Source: Macrococcus epidermidis
Lineage (GTDB): Bacteria > Bacillota > Bacilli > Staphylococcales > Staphylococcaceae
Length of the DNA stretch: 64,000 nucleotides
Reading direction: 5' to 3'
Assembly: GCF_003259695.1 (NCBI RefSeq)
Contig: NZ_PZJH01000004.1
Coordinates: forward strand, 62,001-126,000
The position numbers and the translations under genes are program-made. The first letter of the stretch is position 1; each line of letters opens with the position of its first letter. Below are positions 13,975 through 58,309 of the stretch, in pieces. The notes beneath the pieces are model-generated. The model was not told the DNA's origin, searched no databases, and saw only the letters and a program-made list of their open reading frames with translations.

Positions 13975-14155
13975 GCGGATTCTCTTATCCAGAGTGGTGG
14001 AGGGACATGGACCCTTTGAAGCCCAGCAACCCTTAACTTCATTGTTAAGTAAGGTGCCAAACCGTTTGCAGACAGCTGTCTGAACGATAAGAGCAGAATG
14101 GACTAATTATGTATAATTAGCCTTCTCTCTTAATAGGAGAGAGGGCTATTTTTTA
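13975..14155 (+). promoter_or_regulatory. SAM-I (S-box) riboswitch of metK with terminator
   Basis: The aptamer shows the S-box signatures in order: CTTATCCAGAGTGGTGGAGG, GGACC, TGAAGCCC, AGCAACC, AAGGTGCCAA and the closing ACGATAAGAG. An intrinsic terminator (stem TTCTCTC/GAGAGAG extended by GCC/GGC, followed by a T-run, 14119-14156) forms the expression platform. SAM binding should favour termination and so limit SAM synthetase. Confidence 0.96.
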
Positions 14156-33293: not shown

Positions 33294-33587
33294 AGTAGCA
33301 CTCCTTTTTGGATGGTTTATAATTAGTGTATATAAAACATATAGAATTTTCAAAATTATTTTTAAATTTTTATGAAGATATTTTGTTTTGCTTTATTTTA
33401 CAAGAAAGTACGTGTTGCATTAACTAAGCTGTGATTTTAATGTAAAATGATTATAAATAAAACTTAAATAAATACAGAATAGGATGTTTAAATTTGAAAT
33501 TTGATGACTTGAAATATGATAGGTTGATTACTTTTATTGAAAAATTAGTTTAACCATTTACATTAATAATCAAAATTGATAATATAT

Positions 33588-33612
33588 ATTGATAAAAGTA
33601 CTTTTTATCAAT
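33588..33612 (+). promoter_or_regulatory. Palindrome abutting the methylase ribosome-binding site
   Basis: 10-bp arms ATTGATAAAA and TTTTATCAAT flank the centre GTACT, and GGAGG follows directly. It could be an operator for the first methylase, whose N-terminus looks like a DNA-binding domain, or an RNA hairpin that masks the ribosome-binding site. The preceding 270 bp (33294-33563) hold no gene that I can support. Confidence 0.5.
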
Positions 33613-33623
33613 GGAGGTTAAAT

Positions 33624-34919
33624 ATGAGTAGAGGCGGTACTAGACCTGGAGCAGGAAGGAATCCTATCAAAGGCAAGGAAATTAAAATAAAAATTCCTGA
33701 TGAAATCTTTGAACAGTTAGAAATGAATTTTACTGGAAAAAGTGATCAAGAAAGAATAAGAGAATGCTTAGAGTTTGGGATAAATCAAAAAATTGTTAAT
33801 AACAAAGACTTATATATTAGTAGTCAGTATAATGTTATAGATTTATTTTCTGGAGCAGGTGGATTGTCTAGAGGTTTTATGGATGCTGGTTTTAATGTGA
33901 TTTTAGGCATTGATTTTGATGATGCGGCACTGAAAACTTTCAAAGAAAATCATGGTAATGCAGATGCAATGAAGTTAGATTTATTCAACCATGAGAATAT
34001 TAAAGTTATACAAAATTATGTTGACAAAAAAAAGATTAAATTAGATGTTTTAGTTGGCGGTCCACCTTGTCAAGGTTTTTCACTTGCTGGTAAAAGAGAA
34101 GAGTTTGATGAAAGAAATGTACTATATAGTGCCATGGTAAAAACTGCTGAAATATTAAAGCCGAAAGTTATTGTTTTAGAAAATGTACCTGGTATGTTGA
34201 CATTATACAATGGTGCAGGAGCAAAACGCGTAATAGAAGATTTTAGTAAGATAGGGTATAAAGTAGCAAAGCCACAAATTTTATATGCACCTGATTATGG
34301 CGTTCCGCAAATTAGAAAAAGAGTTTTCTTTGTAATGATTCATAATAGTATAATGAATTCCGAATTTAAATATCCAGAACCATTATTAAATGAAGATCAA
34401 TATATAAATTGCGAGGATGCGATAGGAGATTTACCCTCATTAAATAATGTTAAAGATTATTCATTAGGACAAGAATTTAAATATTTAAATGCACCAATAA
34501 CGCAATATCAAAAACAGATGAGATCAAAATCCGATAAAATAGTTAATCATATACCTACAAATCATACTGAGGATACAATAAAATTAATATCATTGATTCC
34601 GGAAGGTAAAAATTATAAAGCTTTACCTGAAGATATTCTATTAAAAAGGAATTTTAAATATAATGAAGCATTAACAAGATATCACAGTAAAAAACCTTCT
34701 AGGACTATTGATACTGGACATAGAACACATTTTCATTATAGATGGAATAGAATTCCTACTGTTAGGGAAAATGCGAGACTGCAATCATTTCCTGATGATT
34801 TTATTTTTTTTGGTAATAAACAAGAGCAATATAGACAAGTGGGTAATGCAGTTCCCCCATTATTGGGAAAAGCAATCGCAACTAAAGTGAGAGAGGTATT
34901 AGAAAATGAAAAAATATAA
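33624..34919 (+). CDS. DNA cytosine-5 methyltransferase M1 (LlaJI type)
   Basis: 431-aa C5 methylase. An N-terminal extension (about 1-60; GGTRPGAGR, then KIKIPDEIFEQLE and a helix) resembles a ribbon-helix-helix domain. Catalytic motifs follow: I VIDLFSGAGG (71-80), IV GGPPCQGFS with Cys149, VI ENVPGM, VIII RKRVFFV, IX ARLQSFPDDF and X VGNAVPP. It protects host DNA from the cognate nuclease. ATG 33624 has GGAGG in front; an upstream in-frame start is less likely. It overlaps the second methylase by 14 bp. Confidence 0.92.
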   Translation: MSRGGTRPGAGRNPIKGKEIKIKIPDEIFEQLEMNFTGKSDQERIRECLEFGINQKIVNNKDLYISSQYNVIDLFSGAGGLSRGFMDAGFNVILGIDFDDAALKTFKENHGNADAMKLDLFNHENIKVIQNYVDKKKIKLDVLVGGPPCQGFSLAGKREEFDERNVLYSAMVKTAEILKPKVIVLENVPGMLTLYNGAGAKRVIEDFSKIGYKVAKPQILYAPDYGVPQIRKRVFFVMIHNSIMNSEFKYPEPLLNEDQYINCEDAIGDLPSLNNVKDYSLGQEFKYLNAPITQYQKQMRSKSDKIVNHIPTNHTEDTIKLISLIPEGKNYKALPEDILLKRNFKYNEALTRYHSKKPSRTIDTGHRTHFHYRWNRIPTVRENARLQSFPDDFIFFGNKQEQYRQVGNAVPPLLGKAIATKVREVLENEKI

Positions 34920-36147
34920 TGTGATTGATTTATTCTCAGGAGCGGGGGGGTTATTGGAGGGATTTTTACAATCTGGATATTATCATCCTTTAGCTTCTGT
35001 TGAATGGGAGAAAGCTCCAATTGAAACTTTGAGACATAGATTAAAAACAAAATGGAATATAACAGACGCTGATCAGAGTGCTATTTGGTTTGATATGCAA
35101 AGAACTGATGAGTTATTTAGAGGATTTGATGATGAAAAGTATGGATATTCGTTTGGTTTAGATTTTTTTGCTGGTAATAACACTGATTTAATTATCGGAG
35201 GGCCACCTTGCCAAGCTTATTCTCAAGCAGGTAGAACAAAAGATAAAAATGGTATGAGAAATGATTATAGAAATTTTTTGTTTGAATATTATTTGAAAGC
35301 TGTCGAAAGATATCAGCCGGAATTATTTGTATTTGAAAATGTACCTGGGATGCTTTCAGCTATGCCGGACGGAACACCAATTGTTGATCTGATAAGAAGT
35401 GATGTCAATTCAATTGGATATGAAATAGTCGAAGATATAAAATACCACGCTTTAATAAATATGAGTGAATATGGTGTACCACAGAATAGAAAACGTGTAA
35501 TTTTAGTAGGAATGAGAAAGGGAAATAAAACTAAGGAAGAAATTCAGCATAGACTAATGAATTTTTATGATAATATTCTTCCGAAATATAAAAGTGAGAA
35601 AATAAAAACTGTATTTGATGCAATAAGTGATTTACCTCCATCATATCCTTTAATTAATGAAGTTATAGTTAAAGGAGTAGGTAAACAATCTCATTCTTTA
35701 CCTGAAAATATAGAAATTGATTGGGGACACATAACTAGATTTCAAAATAAACGTGATATTGATATATTTGGAATTTTAGCAGAAGATATTGCATCTGGAA
35801 AAAATGAATTGCAAAATGCGAATTCTTTAAATGAGATTTATAATAAAGCTACTGGTGGAAATTCTAAAGTTCATAAGTATCATGTCCTACGAAAAGATAT
35901 GCCTAGTACAACTATAACAGCACATCTTCATAAAGATGGATTAAGATTTATACATTACGATCCAAAACAGAAAAGAACGATTACAGTTAGAGAAGCAGCA
36001 AGATTGCAATCTTTTCCTGATGACTTTGAATTTTTATCAACTCGAGGCAATCAATATAAAATGATTGGTAATGCAGTACCTCCTGAGTTTTCAAGGAGAT
36101 TAGCATTAGCTATAAATGATTTATTAATTTATATGAATAAGGAGTAA
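34906..36147 (+). CDS. DNA cytosine-5 methyltransferase M2 (LlaJI type)
   Basis: 413-aa second C5 methylase with motif I VIDLFSGAGGLLEGF, motif IV GGPPCQAYSQAGR (Cys102), ENVPGMLSA, RKRVILVGM, ARLQSFPDDFEF and MIGNAVPP. Two C5 methylases in one system usually mean an asymmetric target, one enzyme per strand. The known LlaJI system (GACGC) has this layout; the target here is not deducible from sequence. Coupled to M1. Confidence 0.92.
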   Translation: MKKYNVIDLFSGAGGLLEGFLQSGYYHPLASVEWEKAPIETLRHRLKTKWNITDADQSAIWFDMQRTDELFRGFDDEKYGYSFGLDFFAGNNTDLIIGGPPCQAYSQAGRTKDKNGMRNDYRNFLFEYYLKAVERYQPELFVFENVPGMLSAMPDGTPIVDLIRSDVNSIGYEIVEDIKYHALINMSEYGVPQNRKRVILVGMRKGNKTKEEIQHRLMNFYDNILPKYKSEKIKTVFDAISDLPPSYPLINEVIVKGVGKQSHSLPENIEIDWGHITRFQNKRDIDIFGILAEDIASGKNELQNANSLNEIYNKATGGNSKVHKYHVLRKDMPSTTITAHLHKDGLRFIHYDPKQKRTITVREAARLQSFPDDFEFLSTRGNQYKMIGNAVPPEFSRRLALAINDLLIYMNKE

Positions 36148-36151
36148 TTTT

Positions 36152-38098
36152 ATGGCAATCGTAGATAAAGATAGACAAAGATTTGATGAAGTCACAAAAA
36201 AGGACAGAATAGGGTTAATTAATGCATTAATTCATGCATCATATAAAATCGAAGATTATAAATATAAGTTATTAGGCATAAATAGAAATTTATCTAATGC
36301 AGAAAAAATTGTTGTTAGATTGATTCCATTACTCGAGATATATAAAAGAGAAGGAAGATTTAGCAGTTTTGGTGAAAATTTAGAAGAAGCAGTTTCAAAC
36401 CTTTCTACTGATTCAATTGATGAGGAGACATTAAAAAAATACTTAAAAAAATTTGATTCATTACGAACACCTGGTAATGAGATGGGAATTTGGATTGATA
36501 AAGCTTATACACTTTCAAATATGGCAAATGAAGTAGCAGAAGGGACATTGAGTATAAGGAATTATATTTCAATTGTTTTTATTAATTTATTTAGTTATTT
36601 TTATATTGACGGAGAGCTAAAATATAAAAATATTTTGTATGAAATATTAACTTATTTTAAAGTGTACGGAAAAGATAAATCTTACAGTAAAGAAACTTTG
36701 ATAGATATATTACACTTTGAAAATGAAAAAGACAATATTAAGAAAAATAATCAAAAAAATATACTATTTGACTATCTAATTTCTACTGAATTTTTTATTA
36801 AGAGTGAGCAAAATAATGAGAAATTTTTATTAAGCGAATTTGCTCAGAACTATCTAGACGATTTAATTGAACTTTGTAACTTAAAATATAAATTTCACGA
36901 ATTTGAAGATGTTAAGCAGCTATTAAATAGAAATACCAATAGTTTAGCATATGCAAAATATTTATCTGAAAACAAAAATAAATTTTTAATGTTAAAAGCC
37001 AAATATTTCTTAGAAAAAAACAAATTATATAATAACAATGAAAAAGTTACAGATTCAAACATAATTTCAGAAAACAAACTATTTTACGGTGCTCCTGGTA
37101 CTGGTAAGTCCTTTAATATTCAAAAATTTATTAGAAAAAATGGGCTGCAAGATTATAAGAATAAATTAGAACACCCAAATGTTTTTAGAACTACATTACA
37201 TCCAGAATCATCATATCATGATTTTGTAGGTCAAATAATGCCTGTAGTGACTAAAGATAATGATGGCAAAGATTTAATAAAATATGATTTTAAGCCACAA
37301 GTTTTTACTTTAGCACTTGAAAGAGCTCTTGAGAAAAGAGATGAACCTGTCTTTTTAATACTAGAAGAAATGAGTCGCGCAAATGTTGCAGCAGTTTTTG
37401 GAGATATATTTCAGTTACTTGATAGAGATGAAGATGGTAGAAGTGAATATTTAATTGATAATGAATTAATTCAAAAGTATTTAAATGAGCAATTCTCAAG
37501 GAAGAATATAGGTTTATCCTTATCGAAAATTTATATTCCGCATAATCTATTCATTATAGGTACAGTTAATACTAGTGATCAAAACGTATTTGTAATGGAT
37601 ACAGCATTTAAAAGAAGATTTGAATTTGAATATTTAGATGCAAATTATGCAGCACTAGACGAAGCTGGTAAACCATTAAATAACTTTGTATTTAACATTG
37701 GAAAGATGAATTTTTCATGGATTAATTTTATCCATAATCTAAATGAATTTATTGTAGATGATTTAAATGGTTTAGGCTTAACAGAAGATAAGCAATTAGG
37801 CCAATTCTTTATTAAATTTAAATTGGATGACAATGAATTAACTGAACAATCAATAGTTACAAATATAGAAAATCAAGATAATTATTCTGTTAACTACGAT
37901 AAATTAAAAGGCAAATTATTGCAATATTTGTGGAATGACGTTCGTGGCGCGTCTTATTCTGAGAAATCATTATTTGATAGTAATATTAAGAGTTTTGGAG
38001 AACTTTATAAAAAGTTTGAAGAAAAAGAACAAGTATTTTCTAAGGAATTTTTAGAAAAATTTGTTAAAGAAGAGTCATATAATGAAATACAAAACTAA
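36152..38098 (+). CDS. McrB-like AAA+ restriction subunit (R1.LlaJI-like)
   Basis: 648-aa protein. The N-terminal ~300 residues are helical and probably bind DNA. The AAA+ motor has Walker A GAPGTGKS (313-320), the Walker B region FLILEEMSRAN (Glu405-406) and the McrB-type sensor NTSD at 473-476, followed by AFKRRFEFEYL. Such GTP/ATP-driven motors work with a McrC-type nuclease to cut unmodified (LlaJI) or modified (McrBC) DNA. Four bases after M2; the end overlaps the next gene by 17 bp. Confidence 0.88.
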   Translation: MAIVDKDRQRFDEVTKKDRIGLINALIHASYKIEDYKYKLLGINRNLSNAEKIVVRLIPLLEIYKREGRFSSFGENLEEAVSNLSTDSIDEETLKKYLKKFDSLRTPGNEMGIWIDKAYTLSNMANEVAEGTLSIRNYISIVFINLFSYFYIDGELKYKNILYEILTYFKVYGKDKSYSKETLIDILHFENEKDNIKKNNQKNILFDYLISTEFFIKSEQNNEKFLLSEFAQNYLDDLIELCNLKYKFHEFEDVKQLLNRNTNSLAYAKYLSENKNKFLMLKAKYFLEKNKLYNNNEKVTDSNIISENKLFYGAPGTGKSFNIQKFIRKNGLQDYKNKLEHPNVFRTTLHPESSYHDFVGQIMPVVTKDNDGKDLIKYDFKPQVFTLALERALEKRDEPVFLILEEMSRANVAAVFGDIFQLLDRDEDGRSEYLIDNELIQKYLNEQFSRKNIGLSLSKIYIPHNLFIIGTVNTSDQNVFVMDTAFKRRFEFEYLDANYAALDEAGKPLNNFVFNIGKMNFSWINFIHNLNEFIVDDLNGLGLTEDKQLGQFFIKFKLDDNELTEQSIVTNIENQDNYSVNYDKLKGKLLQYLWNDVRGASYSEKSLFDSNIKSFGELYKKFEEKEQVFSKEFLEKFVKEESYNEIQN

Positions 38099-39347
38099 TT
38101 ATATAGTTTTGCAGGATGGGGTTGCAATATCAAAGGAATTTGAAAACAAATATAAAGATATTTTTTCCTTAGCAGATTTTAGACGTAAAGAAAATGATAT
38201 TGTAACCGACTTTGTGGGTTTTGTTACTTATAATAATGATGTATTTGTTAGTTTTCCAAAACACTTTTATTCAAATATCGATCTAAAACAAATTAAAGAA
38301 ATCGAAAATTTGAACAAAGATATAAAATTACTTTTTAACTGTATAAAAAAAGCAATACTTAAAAAAACTTTGACATCGATAGGTATTAATGATGATCTAA
38401 ATAAAGATTATCCTATGAGATCCTTTTTTCAGATCTATGAATACTATCAAAAGTATGGATTATATTATGATGAAATTAAAACGCAAAAATTAGGTGGTAC
38501 TGGTAAAGTCAATTGGAATAAAACGATAAAAAAATCACCAGTAATTATTTCAAACGGTAATATTATTTTTAATCCATTAATAACTAATTCTAATCAAAAA
38601 AATGCCGTTTTTATAAGTGAGTGTATGACTTTTGCTATAAACTCAACTATAGAAAAATTTTCTTTTATATTAAATTATTCTACAATCGATTTCGATATTA
38701 GTAGTACTGGTTGGGATAACAAAGACTTTATTATTAATAAACTTAAAGCTGTGTTAAACGAAACGTTTAAAGATTATCAAAAGAAACTGATTTTGAGTCT
38801 TATTGAATTTTTTGAATATAGAAAGAGTGGCAACAATACAGTTAGAATGACTATTAATTCATTTAATTTAATTTGGGAACAGATTTTAGAAAATTATTTG
38901 AACAGTTATTTTATTGGAATAAGTGGAAATGGTTATCTAGAGTTTTCTGATATCAAGAATAAAAAAATGAAAAGTTTTACAAAAGCATCAGAGATTACAG
39001 ATTTAAGTGAAAATCGCTATACTGTAGAACCAGATTATTATTATTTCGGTTCAGATTATAAACTTATTCTTGATGCAAAATATTATGATGAAGTAAGAGG
39101 GCTCAATTATAAACAAGCTTCATACTATTTTTTATTAAAACATCATAATTTATTTAATAATGGAAATTTAGAAACATGGAAAACATATAATATTTTATTG
39201 CTACCTACAAGTCGTATTCAAAATCATGAAAGTAATAAAAGAAAACATTATGTTCAGAATACTGATTATAATAAGGAGGAACAAGATTTTACTATTAATG
39301 AACAGTATTTTAATATAAAAATGTTGATGAATTATTATTTATTATAA
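38082..39347 (+). CDS. LlaJI-type restriction endonuclease subunit (R2, McrC-like)
   Basis: 421-aa partner of the McrB-like protein. The C-terminal part carries a PD-(D/E)XK-like core: EPDYYYFGSDYKLILDAKYYDEV near residues 315-340 (D...DAK). The N-terminal half is Lys/Ile/Asn-rich. A TTG upstream (38061) is in frame, but ATG 38082 has AAGAAGAG at the right distance. Only the pairing with the AAA+ gene and two methylases identifies it as R2.LlaJI-like. Confidence 0.82.
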   Translation: MKYKTNYIVLQDGVAISKEFENKYKDIFSLADFRRKENDIVTDFVGFVTYNNDVFVSFPKHFYSNIDLKQIKEIENLNKDIKLLFNCIKKAILKKTLTSIGINDDLNKDYPMRSFFQIYEYYQKYGLYYDEIKTQKLGGTGKVNWNKTIKKSPVIISNGNIIFNPLITNSNQKNAVFISECMTFAINSTIEKFSFILNYSTIDFDISSTGWDNKDFIINKLKAVLNETFKDYQKKLILSLIEFFEYRKSGNNTVRMTINSFNLIWEQILENYLNSYFIGISGNGYLEFSDIKNKKMKSFTKASEITDLSENRYTVEPDYYYFGSDYKLILDAKYYDEVRGLNYKQASYYFLLKHHNLFNNGNLETWKTYNILLLPTSRIQNHESNKRKHYVQNTDYNKEEQDFTINEQYFNIKMLMNYYLL

Positions 39348-39442
39348 AATATTAACTTTTTAATCATTTTCACTAATTCAAAAATATATTAAAACGATTT
39401 CGATATTATTTATATAAATCTTATTAGTCTAGAGGTGTTTTG

Positions 39443-39856
39443 ATGGACGTACACACACCGGAACAGAGACGACATAATATGCAGAAAATTACTGGCAAGA
39501 ATACTAAACCTGAAGAAATAGTTCGTAAATATTTATTCCATAGGGGTATAAGATATACAAAAAATGCTAAAGATTTACCTGGAAAACCTGATCTGTATAT
39601 ATCAAAATATAATGTTGCAGTTTTTGTAAATGGTTGTTTTTGGCATGTTCATAACTGTGAATTATTTGTTATGCCTAAGTCAAATAAAGAATTCTGGCAG
39701 AAAAAATTAGATAGTAATGTATCCAGAGATGAACGCAATATTGAGGAATTGAATGAATTAGGAATTCGTGTGATTGTTGTCTGGGAATGTGGCTTGAAGA
39801 AGAACGATAGAGAAGAAACGTTAAATGATTTGTATGACATGATAGTTGGTGGTTAA
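39443..39856 (+). CDS. vsr: Very short patch repair endonuclease Vsr
   Basis: 137-aa Vsr nuclease that nicks 5' of T:G mismatches arising from 5-methylcytosine deamination. Family signature TPEQRRHNMQKITGKNTKPE at the N-terminus, PGKPDLYI (catalytic Asp), NGCFWHVHNC and the zinc-site region. ATG 39443 follows AGAGGTG; a TTG just before it is less likely. Placed 95 bp after the restriction genes, as expected for a partner of C5 methylases. Confidence 0.93.
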   Translation: MDVHTPEQRRHNMQKITGKNTKPEEIVRKYLFHRGIRYTKNAKDLPGKPDLYISKYNVAVFVNGCFWHVHNCELFVMPKSNKEFWQKKLDSNVSRDERNIEELNELGIRVIVVWECGLKKNDREETLNDLYDMIVGG

Positions 39857-50624: not shown

Positions 50625-53312
50625 ATGAGTTATGGATCATATTGGAGAAAATGGGATTTACATATACATACTCCATTTACAAAATTAAATAATCAGTTTA
50701 GATTGTGTGGAAATGAAAATGAAGTAAAGGATTATTGGTTAGAATACTGTAAATTACTGAATGAATATGAAGCAAAAGTATTAGGCATCACTGATTATTT
50801 CTCAGTAGAAAATTATTTAAATTTAAAAATAAATAGAGACGAATACGGATTGAAGAAAGATATAGTCTTGTTTCCAAACATTGAACTAAGAGTATCTGAT
50901 TTAACATCCCGTGCTGCTCATAAAAATGAATATCAAAATTCAGATTCGTCTAAGTCTAAAAAACGAAATAATTCGAAAGTAAATATCCATTTAATATTTA
51001 ATAATGAAGTTAAGGATGATGATTTAATTAATTTTCTGAGAAACATACAAGTTGAAGATGTTGATGGAAAGAAGATAAATTATATTGATAATCAAGATAT
51101 AATTTTTCAAAATGGTAATATCGAATATTTACCAACTTCAAAAGATATTATTAATTCTCTAGAAGCAACATTTGGCAAACAATATAGAGATAATGTTCTA
51201 ATTATGGTTCCAAATAGTGATGATGGAATTTCACCAAATACAGGCCACGGAATAAAAAATAATGATAATTTTGTAAAAAATTATGTTGATATAATTAATA
51301 CATCAAATCAAAGCTGTATATCTTTTTATAGTGGACAATCAAAAAGAGATTTGGGGAAATTGTTTCCATGTATTTCTGGATCTGATGCTCATAGTTATAA
51401 AGAAATAAAAGAGTATGATAAAGAAAAATCAACTTTTATTAAGTCAGATTTAACATTTAAAGGTTTAAAATCTATATTAATAGAACCCTTAAGTAGAGTA
51501 CATATAGGTGAAAAACACCCTGATATTAAGCTTGAAAGTAAAGTTATCGATACCATAGAACTCAATCATGAATATTTTGGTGGACAAAAATTAAAATTTA
51601 ATCCTTATTTAAATACAATTATCGGTGGTAGATCTAGTGGTAAATCATTATTGCTATCAATTCTAGCTAAAAAGTCTAATGATTCTATAACAGTAAAAAA
51701 AAATAATGTTGACTATAATAATTTAGTACATGAAATATCAAATAAAACTATCATAAAATCAAAAGATGGTAATGAGATTAATAACAATTTTAATATTGAA
51801 TTTATTTATCAAGATGGATTACAAGAAATTGCGTTTGATAATGAGAAACGAAATATATTTATAAAAGAAATAATTGGTGACAATCAAGAAATTAGAACAT
51901 TTGAAAATTTCAAAAAAGAAATAAGAACTACTATACAAAATTTAAATTTATGCCTTGAAAAATTACTTAATGAAAATGAGGAGATTAATAATAAATTAAT
52001 TAATTTTCAAAATATTCATACTATTAAACAAAATATTAAAAGTTATGAAAGTAAACTAAGTGAATTTCAATCTTCTCTAAGTAATGAAGAGCTTCAAGTA
52101 GCAAATTCTATTTCAAAGAAAACAAATAAAATAGAACAATATATTACTTATCAACAAAACAAAATAGAACTTTTACATGATTTAAAAAAACAAAATATAT
52201 TAAATTTTGAGGAAACATCAGGAAATTTATTTAATGGATTACATAAGGTCATTATGAATGAAATGAAGAATGCAGAGAACAGAATAAATAGTTACATTGA
52301 GAGTCGTGTGCAACGTAAAATTGACTTAATAGATAAATATAATGTTCACCTAACAAAATTGAAAAAAAACAAACTTTATGTAACATATAAAAAAGAACAA
52401 TCAAATAATCCCGAAAAAGAAAAAATTAATAATTTATTAAACAGAGAAAAATTTAATTTGAAAGCTAGACAAAATTATGACATGGCATTAAGTACAAATT
52501 TATCTAGTATTAATAATACTATAAATCAAATTATTGAATGTTTAAAAAAGTGTGATACCGAGATCAATAAAGAATTATTTGTTAAAGATGAAGTTAAAAT
52601 AAAACTTGATGTTAAATTTAATATTAATGAGGTTTCTAATATTTTTAGAAATCATTTTTCTATAGGACAATCTAAGTATAAAGAATTGGCATATGGCCAA
52701 TTCAAAGAAATTTCACTATGGGAAAATAGAGACTATGAAATTAATACAATAACTATTATCAATGATTTTATTTCAACTATTGAAAATATATTGAATAGTT
52801 CTCTCACTAAGGAAGGTATTTTTAAAAAGAATAAAAATATTTCTACTTTTTTAAATGATATTTCACTATTGATATTTTTAACCATGGACTTCATTATTAC
52901 ATATAAAAATTATGAGTTTAATAAAATGTCAGAAGGAAAAAAATCATTTATTCTATTAGTATTAATTTTATCTCAAACAGACGAAGATACCCCTTTATTA
53001 ATTGATCAACCTGAAGATAACCTTGATAATAATGCTATTTATAATGATTTGATTACTTATCTTTGTAAACAAAAATTAAAAAGACAGATATTTGTGGTTT
53101 CACACAATGCAAATGTTACTGTAGCAGCTGATTCAGAAAATATTATTATTGCAAATGAGCACGATGAGGAAAATCAGAATCCTAACAATAATAAGTTCTA
53201 TTATACTAACGGTAGTTTAGAAAATGATTTAATAGAAAGGAAAGTTTGTAAAATATTAGAAGGTGGAACAGATGCTTTTGAAAAAAGAAGAAGAAGATAT
53301 ACTTTTCTTTAA
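50625..53312 (+). CDS. TrlF-like PHP-domain + SMC/ABC-type ATPase
   Basis: 895-aa protein. The N-terminal PHP phosphoesterase domain (about 1-300) has metal-ligand motifs DLHIHTPF (11-18) and GSDAH (252-256). Then comes a split ABC/SMC ATPase: Walker A GGRSSGKS (334-341), a long coiled coil (about 420-700), signature-like MSEGKKS (768-774), Walker B PLLIDQPEDN (Asp794, Glu797) and H-loop VVSHN (His827). It resembles TrlF-type AAA-like ATPases, a family often found in defence islands. Very AT-rich, unlike the core genes. AGAAGGTGA precedes the ATG. No partner gene is visible. Confidence 0.82.
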   Translation: MSYGSYWRKWDLHIHTPFTKLNNQFRLCGNENEVKDYWLEYCKLLNEYEAKVLGITDYFSVENYLNLKINRDEYGLKKDIVLFPNIELRVSDLTSRAAHKNEYQNSDSSKSKKRNNSKVNIHLIFNNEVKDDDLINFLRNIQVEDVDGKKINYIDNQDIIFQNGNIEYLPTSKDIINSLEATFGKQYRDNVLIMVPNSDDGISPNTGHGIKNNDNFVKNYVDIINTSNQSCISFYSGQSKRDLGKLFPCISGSDAHSYKEIKEYDKEKSTFIKSDLTFKGLKSILIEPLSRVHIGEKHPDIKLESKVIDTIELNHEYFGGQKLKFNPYLNTIIGGRSSGKSLLLSILAKKSNDSITVKKNNVDYNNLVHEISNKTIIKSKDGNEINNNFNIEFIYQDGLQEIAFDNEKRNIFIKEIIGDNQEIRTFENFKKEIRTTIQNLNLCLEKLLNENEEINNKLINFQNIHTIKQNIKSYESKLSEFQSSLSNEELQVANSISKKTNKIEQYITYQQNKIELLHDLKKQNILNFEETSGNLFNGLHKVIMNEMKNAENRINSYIESRVQRKIDLIDKYNVHLTKLKKNKLYVTYKKEQSNNPEKEKINNLLNREKFNLKARQNYDMALSTNLSSINNTINQIIECLKKCDTEINKELFVKDEVKIKLDVKFNINEVSNIFRNHFSIGQSKYKELAYGQFKEISLWENRDYEINTITIINDFISTIENILNSSLTKEGIFKKNKNISTFLNDISLLIFLTMDFIITYKNYEFNKMSEGKKSFILLVLILSQTDEDTPLLIDQPEDNLDNNAIYNDLITYLCKQKLKRQIFVVSHNANVTVAADSENIIIANEHDEENQNPNNNKFYYTNGSLENDLIERKVCKILEGGTDAFEKRRRRYTFL

Positions 53313-54039: not shown

Positions 54040-54075
54040 GAAAAAAGTGCCTATCGCTTGATAGGCACTTTTATT
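54040..54075. terminator. Bidirectional terminator
   Basis: AAAGTGCCTATC pairs with GATAGGCACTTT around GCTT, with A- and T-runs outside. It ends both the 77-aa gene and the convergent SAM-riboswitch gene. Confidence 0.9.
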
Positions 54076-54310
54076 AAAACTGTGGTTCTACGGTCACTTT
54101 GTAGCCATTAATAACAAACTCAACTTTACGGTTCTCTTTGACAATAGTTGGTTCTTCCGGCCCCTGTGTATTAAGCTCAGCATCTAGTGCATTTAATTCA
54201 CTTTTAAGCTGAGAAATCTTTCCCATTCTAGCCATGCTAGATGACCAACTGTTTGGTTTCTTCATTTGTGCCTCTACTAATTCTGCTAATACGTCTGCTC
54301 TTGTTCTCAT
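54074..54310 (-). CDS. Unknown 78-aa protein under a SAM riboswitch
   Basis: Small polar protein: an N-terminal helix (TRADVLAELVEAQMKK), a second amphipathic helix with coiled-coil character (GKISQLKSELNALDAELN), a short acidic linker and a predicted beta hairpin at the end (KVEFVINGYKVTVEPQF). No membrane segment, cysteine or enzyme motif. I do not recognise it. AAGGAG is six bases from ATG 54310. It is the only gene between a SAM-I riboswitch and a terminator, so it is a single-gene SAM-responsive unit. Confidence 0.7.
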   Translation of the reverse strand: MRTRADVLAELVEAQMKKPNSWSSSMARMGKISQLKSELNALDAELNTQGPEEPTIVKENRKVEFVINGYKVTVEPQF

Positions 54311-54340
54311 TATATACACTCCTTAAATCGTTTTTACAAT

Positions 54341-54500
54341 AAAAATAAGCTCATCTTAAAGAAAGAAGAGCTTAAGTAAGAACTTCTTATCTTTCAAGAT
54401 ATCATCTTGTTGGAATTAGCACAGTGCATAAGCCTGTTGCTGAGGTTTCATAGGGCCAAGTCCCTCCACCTACTCTGAATAAGATACGAGCTATTTTTTT
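54341..54500 (-). promoter_or_regulatory. SAM-I (S-box) riboswitch with terminator, minus strand
   Basis: Read on the minus strand, all S-box landmarks appear in order: TCTTATTCAGAGTAGGTGGA, GGGACTTGGCCC, TGAAACCTCAGCAAC, TGTGCTAATTCC and the closing AAAGATAAGA (aptamer about 54384-54492). A terminator stem TAAGCTC/GAGCTTA followed by TTTTT (54374 down to 54341) is the expression platform. A TATAAT -10 lies a few bases ahead of the aptamer. Confidence 0.93.
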
Positions 54501-54574
54501 GTAAGTTAATTATAACATACTTTTTTTATTCAGAGCCCTTCGAAATCATTTTGTAATATTTTTTGAGCCATATT

Positions 54575-55478: not shown

Positions 55479-55724
55479 ATGAACTTTAAAAGACATATAA
55501 CTATATTAAGAATCGTCATGTATAGTCTAGATACGGTTATTGCGCTATCACTAATATATTATTTCGGAAGTAAGATATTTCCTTATGAATTCATCGCTCT
55601 GGGTGACCAATTCTATTATCTCAGTATTATTCTAATCCTTGAAGCCATTATCCTAACTGCAGAGAAAGTCAAAGAAGACTTAGAGGATATGCCTATAGGA
55701 AAATGGAGAAGGTATCGAATATAA
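55479..55724 (+). CDS. Small membrane protein, 81 aa
   Basis: Two membrane helices (about 11-30 and 43-60), then an acidic helix and a basic tail (GKWRRYRI). Similar in layout and tail to the 84-aa protein at 40752, probably a distant paralog. Its last codons lie in a 336-bp duplicated block also found at 57974. Confidence 0.62.
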   Translation: MNFKRHITILRIVMYSLDTVIALSLIYYFGSKIFPYEFIALGDQFYYLSIILILEAIILTAEKVKEDLEDMPIGKWRRYRI

Positions 55725-56031
55725 GTGATACCTCGGTATTAAGGGAATGAAAGTAATATCAAGTACATCACTGGTATATATACTACAATATTAAAAAAAT
55801 TAATTGCGAGTGAAAAATATAATAATTTTTTATATCCAGGATATTTATCCAGCAGATGAAACATATAAAAAATAATTATTAATGAACTTATACCAATTGA
55901 GCAGTACACCCAAATACCTTCCAATTCAATAATACTATTTCCGTAAATATGAAATAACATCAAACCAATATACAATAAGTAATTTAGAATATTGAGTGTT
56001 ATAACTTTCTTCTTCAAGTAAATCACCTCTA
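55696..56031. repeat. 336-bp duplicated block, first copy
   Basis: Matches 57974-58309 at a constant offset of 2,278 with a single base difference that I can find (GTGATACC against ATGATACC). It covers the 3' end of the 81-aa gene and all of the 95-aa minus-strand gene. Confidence 0.95.
55739..56026 (-). CDS. Membrane protein, 95 aa (first of two identical copies)
   Basis: Three predicted helices (about 9-27, 36-55 and 68-90), no family recognised. GAGGTGATTT lies ahead of the ATG. Identical at protein level to the gene at 58017-58304. It faces the gene at 56118 across an AT-rich divergent promoter region. Confidence 0.65.
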   Translation of the reverse strand: MIYLKKKVITLNILNYLLYIGLMLFHIYGNSIIELEGIWVYCSIGISSLIIIFYMFHLLDKYPGYKKLLYFSLAINFFNIVVYIPVMYLILLSFP

Positions 56032-57885: not shown

Positions 57886-57974
57886 ATTTTTTATATTATT
57901 ATTTTTCATACCACTCAATCGCATGTTCCTCTAATTCTTTTACGAGATCATTTTTTCCTTCTATATATACTTCT
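57886..57974 (-). pseudogene. 3' fragment of a GrpB-family gene
   Basis: Carries only the last ~25 codons of the GrpB gene (same as 58936-59010 and 60087-60175), including the flank TTTTTTATATTATTATTTTT shared with the third copy. It breaks off at TTCT and joins directly to the duplicated 336-bp block. Confidence 0.85.
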
Positions 57975-58309
57975 AGGAAAATGGAGAAGGTATCGAATAT
58001 AAATGATACCTCGGTATTAAGGGAATGAAAGTAATATCAAGTACATCACTGGTATATATACTACAATATTAAAAAAATTAATTGCGAGTGAAAAATATAA
58101 TAATTTTTTATATCCAGGATATTTATCCAGCAGATGAAACATATAAAAAATAATTATTAATGAACTTATACCAATTGAGCAGTACACCCAAATACCTTCC
58201 AATTCAATAATACTATTTCCGTAAATATGAAATAACATCAAACCAATATACAATAAGTAATTTAGAATATTGAGTGTTATAACTTTCTTCTTCAAGTAAA
58301 TCACCTCTA
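57974..58309. repeat. 336-bp duplicated block, second copy
   Basis: Copy of 55696-56031. The left end carries the orphaned last codons of the 81-aa gene, now fused to a GrpB fragment. The right edge diverges after CACCTCTA. Confidence 0.95.
58017..58304 (-). CDS. Membrane protein, 95 aa (second identical copy)
   Basis: Identical to the product of 55739-56026, with the same GAGGTGATTT ribosome-binding site. The sequence beyond that site differs, so it uses another promoter region; the 55-aa gene lies upstream on the same strand. Confidence 0.65.
   Translation of the reverse strand: MIYLKKKVITLNILNYLLYIGLMLFHIYGNSIIELEGIWVYCSIGISSLIIIFYMFHLLDKYPGYKKLLYFSLAINFFNIVVYIPVMYLILLSFP

Follow-up and report, generated by a model that had tools for sequence, protein, structure and literature searches.

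A SAM-I riboswitch with a covarying pre-P1 pairing upstream of a conserved small-protein gene in Macrococcus epidermidis and its relatives

In the textbooks, S-box (SAM-I) riboswitches regulate methionine enzymes and transporters, and the locus described here raises the question of what such a switch is doing in front of a single gene for a 78-residue protein with no recognisable enzyme or transporter motif. The locus lies in a 64,000-nt stretch of a Macrococcus epidermidis contig (the window, to which all coordinates below refer unless stated otherwise), and its closest named relative is found in Macrococcoides goetzii, at 94% protein identity. A first-pass annotation, made from the letters of the window, had described a complete minus-strand riboswitch with a terminator platform, followed by a small gene with a good ribosome-binding site and a terminator of its own. 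It had left two readings of the arrangement, in which either the protein is an uncharacterised player in methionine/SAM physiology or the switch lost its first gene and took on this one.

The description of the locus itself holds in every part. The covariance model RF00162 matches 54384..54485 on the minus strand over all of its positions (1-108 of 108), with 81.0 bits and an E value of 1.6e-17 against a curated cut-off of 44.4. Upstream on the same strand, as are all features of the unit, an extended -10 promoter element (TGTTATAAT, 54509..54517) was read by eye and places the presumed transcription start near 54502; an element resembling an extended -10 is also seen by eye ahead of homologous leaders. 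The 14 nt before P1 (54486..54499), here called alpha, form the presumed 5′ end of the transcript. Downstream of the aptamer, folding and a leader alignment place an antiterminator whose left arm (AAGAAG, 54383..54388) overlaps the P1 3′ strand and whose right arm (CUUCUU, 54363..54368) overlaps the terminator 5′ arm, allowing the P1 3′ strand to pair with the latter. The intrinsic terminator hairpin of the platform (54346..54374) folds at −12.3 kcal/mol (z −4.0), as well as which 0 of 200 shuffles fold, and is followed by a U-tract (54341-54345), read from the sequence. Alpha is complementary to the terminator 3′ arm and this U-tract, and the partner region, defined by duplex energies and covariation, spans 54339..54353. 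An AAGGAG ribosome-binding site (54319..54324, also read from the sequence) lies 8 nt before the ATG of the 78-codon gene (54074..54310), beyond which a second terminator (54045..54070) folds at −16.4 kcal/mol (z −5.8; again 0 of 200 shuffles fold as well). A consensus scan called neither the -10 element TGTTATAAT nor a terminator on either strand, so that the promoter and terminators rest on reading of the sequence and on the folding tests. The ORFs on both sides of the gene are on the opposite strand, and the 78-codon gene thus looks like a monocistronic member of the SAM-I regulon.

The whole genome (2.49 Mb) contains eight SAM-I matches, including the one considered here. The other seven units begin, by reading of the translations, with metNP (three units), metY, mtnK, metK and an M20 amidohydrolase; the metY unit continues with a metA-like gene, and the mtnK unit is mtnK-mtnA. 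The metK switch, which the first-pass annotation had placed at about 14 kb, corresponds to an RF00162 match of 67.2 bits at 13982..14093 on the plus strand.

Several other features of the window are worth recording. On the far side of the gene that converges on the small gene, an 895-aa protein (50625-53312) with no Pfam family matches the PADLOC model Ppl (E 8e-24) and is a possible anti-phage defence gene. A restriction-modification island (33576-39856) encodes two cytosine methyltransferases, a Vsr nicking endonuclease, an AAA-type protein with matches to type II restriction models, and a 428-aa neighbour without a match. A 300-nt direct repeat (55687-55986 and 57965-58264; 99% identical, 2,278 nt apart) carries most of one 95-aa membrane-like ORF twice on the minus strand (55739-56026 and 58017-58304), and the repeated ORFs flank genes for a sigma-70-family (ECF-like) factor and a likely anti-sigma factor.

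The switch and the small gene occur together far beyond this genome. With the window protein alone as the query, matches were found in 21 of 60 genomes and 5 of 12 genera, and the 20 homologue loci from this search (L010-L029) all have a SAM-I switch directly upstream. Profile A1, built from these loci, matches 59 places in 108 genomes, all of which were examined, and 57 have the switch; the remaining two (L080 and L091) have none, not even at E <= 0.01, and encode a longer, different protein. Profile A2 matches 75 of the 157 genomes of the order, with 82 rows listed. At E <= 2.1e-10, all 69 of its rows, from 9 genera, have an above-cut-off SAM-I switch immediately upstream on the same strand, a result that supports the first of the two readings; like the other linkage counts, it leans towards linkage in that the profiles were built from SAM-I-linked members, with L080 and L091 left out. 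The 13 weaker A2 rows comprise seven within SAM-I units, one decayed copy (in G081) and five without a SAM-I switch (the second copy of G085, G054, G131, G044 and G114 C6).

A similar pattern is seen at greater distance. In 398 genomes sampled across the class, five weak matches fall outside the order, four of them behind SAM-I switches and one, in G444, without. In a second order (261 genomes), a further profile finds 20 places at E <= 1.4e-5, of which 19 lie behind SAM-I switches; the exception (G663 C5) is a broken copy with no switch. Among the 18 weaker rows in that order, none of the five examined has a SAM-I switch, and a sixth is a fragment of the broken copy. Linkage thus separates true members, which have it, from chance matches, which do not. 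In 87 of 88 linked loci, the window's own left out, the profile match begins 66-117 nt after the aptamer; L092, which has a SAM-I switch and matches the first profile only, is outside these 87 spacings but inside the set of 89 leaders discussed below. The window protein itself is found at E 2.4e-22 by A2, a profile that contains it, and at E 8.4e-4 by a profile that does not (A5), no better than 15 weak rows of the A5 search (E 3.3e-4 to 0.01), which come from other genomes than those of the named members and stay outside the linkage counts. Across the genomes of two orders compared here, members of the family are near-universally linked to predicted SAM-I switches, and conserved linkage of this kind argues for a conserved function: it is very probable that the small protein has a role in methionine/SAM or sulphur physiology.

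Individual loci show how this unit varies. Three genomes (L074, L075 and L141) have a second family member with its own switch. Two loci (L089 and L090) have a T-box leader some 350-370 nt downstream of the family SAM-I switch, and in genus g16 (L148, L149 and L152) a gene read as glycerate-kinase-like follows within about 15 nt of the small gene. The unlinked L080 and L091, from two g5 genomes, are ORFs of 121-135 aa with a similar core motif beside an ORF read as ArsD-like. The Rfam Staphylococcus sRNA sau-13 is matched in 5 of 10 loci of genus g3, presumed to be Staphylococcus, which supplies 84 of the 108 genomes of the bacterial family. The G081 copy (L128, 1052-1333) lies behind a decayed aptamer with a sub-cut-off score of 38.7 bits, and switch and gene appear to degrade together there. 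In other loci the switch is intact and the gene is interrupted, by a stop (L012) or a frame shift (L016) just before the C-terminal strands, by an end before those strands (L018) or by an early stop (L087), and the C-terminus, or the whole gene, may be dispensable in some lineages. Given these interruptions, and given that 50 of the 108 genomes of the bacterial family lack the gene or have only a decayed copy, the gene is not essential.

Besides the antiterminator, the leaders of this family share a second, covarying pairing, in which the 14-nt alpha element is predicted to engage the terminator 3′ arm and its U-tract. In all 89 stand-alone leaders, with L092 and the window included, the best alpha duplex has a mean energy of −10.6 kcal/mol (range −15.8 to −4.3), and that of the window leader is −11.3 kcal/mol. 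For 12 other SAM-I platforms with a terminator (seven from the window's genome, and five of nine from operon-type loci and L234) the mean is −1.6 kcal/mol; for 37 further platforms with a terminator, from 40 sites hand-picked among 150 SAM-I rows listed, it is −3.1 kcal/mol, with none below −5.6. No terminator was found at 4 of 16 sites in the first control set or at 3 of 40 in the second, the three being among those four. Comparable pairing, sought in the 14 nt next to the aptamer, occurs in 0 of the 49 other SAM-I platforms. When the element is shuffled 200 times, the duplexes of 48 of 57 distinct family leaders, and of 0 of 37 controls, rank among the best 1%; nine of the 57 do not, and for two of the 57 the duplex is weak (−4.3 and −4.4 kcal/mol).

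The same picture comes from aligning 50 of the 89 leaders. An offset scan gives 89% paired at the best register and 60% at the next best. Across the alpha pairing 91.7% of 592 cells are paired (45-58% on slides of 1-3 columns), seven pairs have changes on both sides in 54 cells (5.0 and 14.5 in shuffles), and the covariation score is 0.388 vs 0.181 in shuffles; the pair counts depend on an alignment register chosen by scanning, and the shuffles ignore relatedness. In the same 50 leaders, the AAGAAG/CUUCUU antiterminator is paired in 99.3% of 297 cells, and the platform terminator in 82.3% of 549 cells, with both-side changes at five pairs. RNAalifold, unprompted, draws the inner six pairs of alpha together with P1. 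The G/C-containing part of the helix is lineage-specific (AGCUC/GAGCU, UAGUU/GGCUA, AACGC/GCGUU, ACUCUU/AAGAGU), and when elements are tried against the arms of other lineages (up to 12 of each), the pairing is mostly poorer than with arms of their own lineage, except that the AGCUC element pairs about as well with the UAGUU-type arm and the single unclassed arm as with its own. By fold energies computed without pseudoknot or ligand, unconstrained folding arrives at the alpha-paired state as the minimum in 77 of 89 leaders; this state lies below the alpha-free fold in 84 of the 89, and is not lower in five.

In SAM-I riboswitches, as described in PMC3656099, the ON state has an antiterminator helix and the OFF state has P1 and the terminator. 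Applied to the window's leader, such a model would have P1 locked when SAM is bound, leaving the terminator 5′ arm free, so that the local hairpin would form first and the gene would be off. When SAM is low, the P1 switching strand would take the terminator 5′ arm, and alpha, at the 5′ end of the transcript, would occupy its 3′ arm together with the U-tract. Such a two-armed antiterminator would keep the arms from meeting, the gene would be on, and the small protein would be made when SAM is short. SAM-off control of the 78-aa gene is predicted with near certainty. That alpha would form the second half of a two-armed antiterminator, as its covariation and energies suggest, we consider fairly likely. 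As RNAalifold draws both helices, alpha is compatible with P1 and need not exclude the SAM-bound state.

Alpha may instead stabilise the 5′ end or act in translation, or it may simply result from an A-rich 5′ end lying opposite a U-tract. The helix does in part set A-rich sequence against the U-tract, and the coexistence of P1 and alpha would suit such a function. However, most of the covariation is held by four pairs outside the U-tract (columns 14-17 with 178-181), which account for 33 of the 54 both-side cells and have three cells unpaired. Runs of at least seven pairs with at least two G-C pairs, moreover, are present in 32 of 57 distinct family leaders, in 0 of 12 controls and in 2% of shuffles, and the pairing is absent from the other SAM-I leaders tested. 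These alternatives thus seem unlikely.

The 78-codon ORF is a real protein gene under purifying selection: in 14 non-overlapping homologue pairs, pooled, pS is 0.365 and pN 0.078 (pN/pS about 0.2), and with pN well below pS it behaves as a conserved protein gene. As the first-pass annotation had surmised, no known function can be read from the product. Pfam, NCBIfam and PHROGs gave nothing above cut-off for the window protein, which by these collections is not a known methionine, SAM or sulphur enzyme or transporter; 21 members of the family alignment have no Pfam or NCBIfam family, eight divergent members have no Pfam family, and a PDB sequence search gave no usable match for the family. The only NCBIfam match of the window protein, to DdfA (NF053557; residues 40-75, E 0.015, 15.2 bits against a cut-off of 70), is shared by 1 of the 21 members and was treated as chance. 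A mobile or phage origin was also considered and rejected, a tblastn search with P0001 giving no phage match and one chance plasmid match; the 56-aa variant gave no plasmid match.

AlphaFold models the window protein (mean pLDDT 73) as a helix (residues 4-16), a turn, a second helix (22-47) and a small beta C-terminus, with a helical hairpin core at residues 1-47. The type found in the second order is modelled (pLDDT 90) as a helix (3-15) followed by one long helix (21-92). In PDB fold searches, the models matched only generic helical hairpins. All 15 members measured are hydrophilic, with pI values of 5.2-9.8. Conservation in the family falls on the turn and the beginning of helix 2, with the approximate motif P-x-[NS]-aromatic-[AS]-[ASG]-S-[MI]-x-[KR]; the C-termini vary by lineage. 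The product may accordingly be pictured as a small soluble helical hairpin, and, more loosely, the conserved turn and helix start as a putative binding surface. The protein is small and hydrophilic and has no enzyme family, only one of its surfaces is conserved, and its C-termini vary; on these grounds it is about an even bet that it binds another protein as an adaptor or regulator rather than forming part of an enzyme. Our best guess is that such a regulator would adjust sulphur or methionine metabolism during SAM shortage.

Members of the family that lie inside longer operons bear on the same question, and known methionine, SAM and sulphur genes do adjoin these. The seven weak A2 matches that sit inside SAM-I transcription units belong to metY or monooxygenase units, the gene names here being readings of translations. 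In four (L124-L127) the small gene directly follows a MetY-like gene. In two (L122 and L123) it comes last, after genes for an LLM-type monooxygenase, a sodium/solute symporter and a tautomerase-like protein, and L166 is grouped with these two by its identical spacing of 3,438 nt from the switch. A DJ-1/PfpI-like gene comes next in all six operon-type units read. SAM-I units that combine a family member with metY, or with the monooxygenase, symporter and tautomerase genes, possibly serve organosulphur scavenging. Comparison of the operon-type profile with that of the main family gives an hhalign E of 8e-8, and a second comparison that supports homology gives 1e-12, each being one profile against one. 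Searched back against the 108 genomes, the operon-type profile finds 16 genomes at E <= 0.001, all 16 of them SAM-I linked: seven in operon units, eight stand-alone and one a broken copy with a SAM-I switch some 3.4 kb upstream.

The position of L124-L127 directly after metY raises the possibility that the small protein works as a subunit of a single sulphur enzyme, or as its dedicated partner, with the O-acetylhomoserine sulfhydrylase MetY as an example. In presumed Staphylococcus, metY is present in 37 of 38 genomes with the small gene vs 16 of 46 without it (as with the other metY co-occurrence counts, raw genome counts uncorrected for relatedness). However, the second bacterial family of the order (f2) has no clear bias (10 of 12 vs 16 of 21), genus g85 is uninformative since metY is present in all 68 of its 68 genomes, and the small gene is found without metY, at the thresholds used, in G002, G005, G009, G014, G015, G024, G059 and G088. 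With strong co-occurrence in one genus only, an obligate MetY partner was rejected, and a dedicated partner of one sulphur enzyme is improbable.

A different possibility is that the leader RNA itself does the work, responding to SAM and acting in trans, and that the ORF is incidental. The leader is conserved and its fold elaborate, and SreA and SreB of Listeria are a precedent, being SAM riboswitches that act in trans. However, purifying selection on the protein, together with the ribosome-binding site and the terminator after the gene, makes this very improbable. Least credible is the annotation's second reading, by which an unrelated small gene has taken the place of the methionine gene that the switch once controlled, for although no enzyme or transporter family is recognised in the product, switch and gene are found together in 69 of 69 strong homologues (9 genera), in 19 of 20 in another order and in seven more inside S-box units, and the leaders retain a common special platform, so that a recent capture in this genome is refuted by the comparison, an ancient capture being indistinguishable from ancient recruitment.

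The explanation that we regard as probable overall is that the locus is an S-box unit in which a two-armed antiterminator would switch on a small-protein regulator of SAM shortage. Whether this amounts to a SAM-I variant with a two-armed antiterminator, dedicated across two orders to one family of low-SAM regulators, is a more tentative matter, to which we give slightly less than even weight. The riboswitch class is already known; the putative added antiterminator arm and the small-protein target are new. Neither the small-protein family nor the pre-P1 pairing is named in the open-access literature searched, including the accessible parts of PMC3766115, PMC3656099, PMC3280964 and PMC3771891; RegPrecise and closed papers were outside the search, and the gene may be listed in RegPrecise as hypothetical. 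A conserved small protein as a dedicated S-box target would be a missing piece of methionine/SAM control in the relatives of Staphylococcus, and a unit of one gene and one switch offers a tight genetic handle on it. The pre-P1 pairing, which may help a weak, A/U-rich terminator to switch cleanly, likewise offers a cheap test of whether a riboswitch can keep both terminator arms apart.

Models from other shortage responses may be relevant to the protein. The Fbp proteins of the Bacillus iron-sparing response are small regulatory proteins induced by nutrient shortage, and the window protein would resemble them as a small soluble product whose synthesis is confined to times when a metabolite derived from a nutrient runs low. 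However, the Fbp proteins are controlled by Fur and the window protein by a riboswitch, and we know of no sequence relation between the two. Within the S-box regulon of the Bacillales and Staphylococcaceae, as it appears in PMC3766115 and PMC3771891, the 78-aa gene has familiar company, sitting among metNP, metY, mtnK-mtnA, metK and the M20 amidohydrolase, but its product is a small helical protein without an enzyme or transporter family. Compared with known SAM-I riboswitches (RF00162; PMC3656099), the window's leader has the same aptamer, P1 switching strand, antiterminator and terminator, and adds to them a covarying pre-P1 pairing, predicted to engage the terminator 3′ arm and U-tract.
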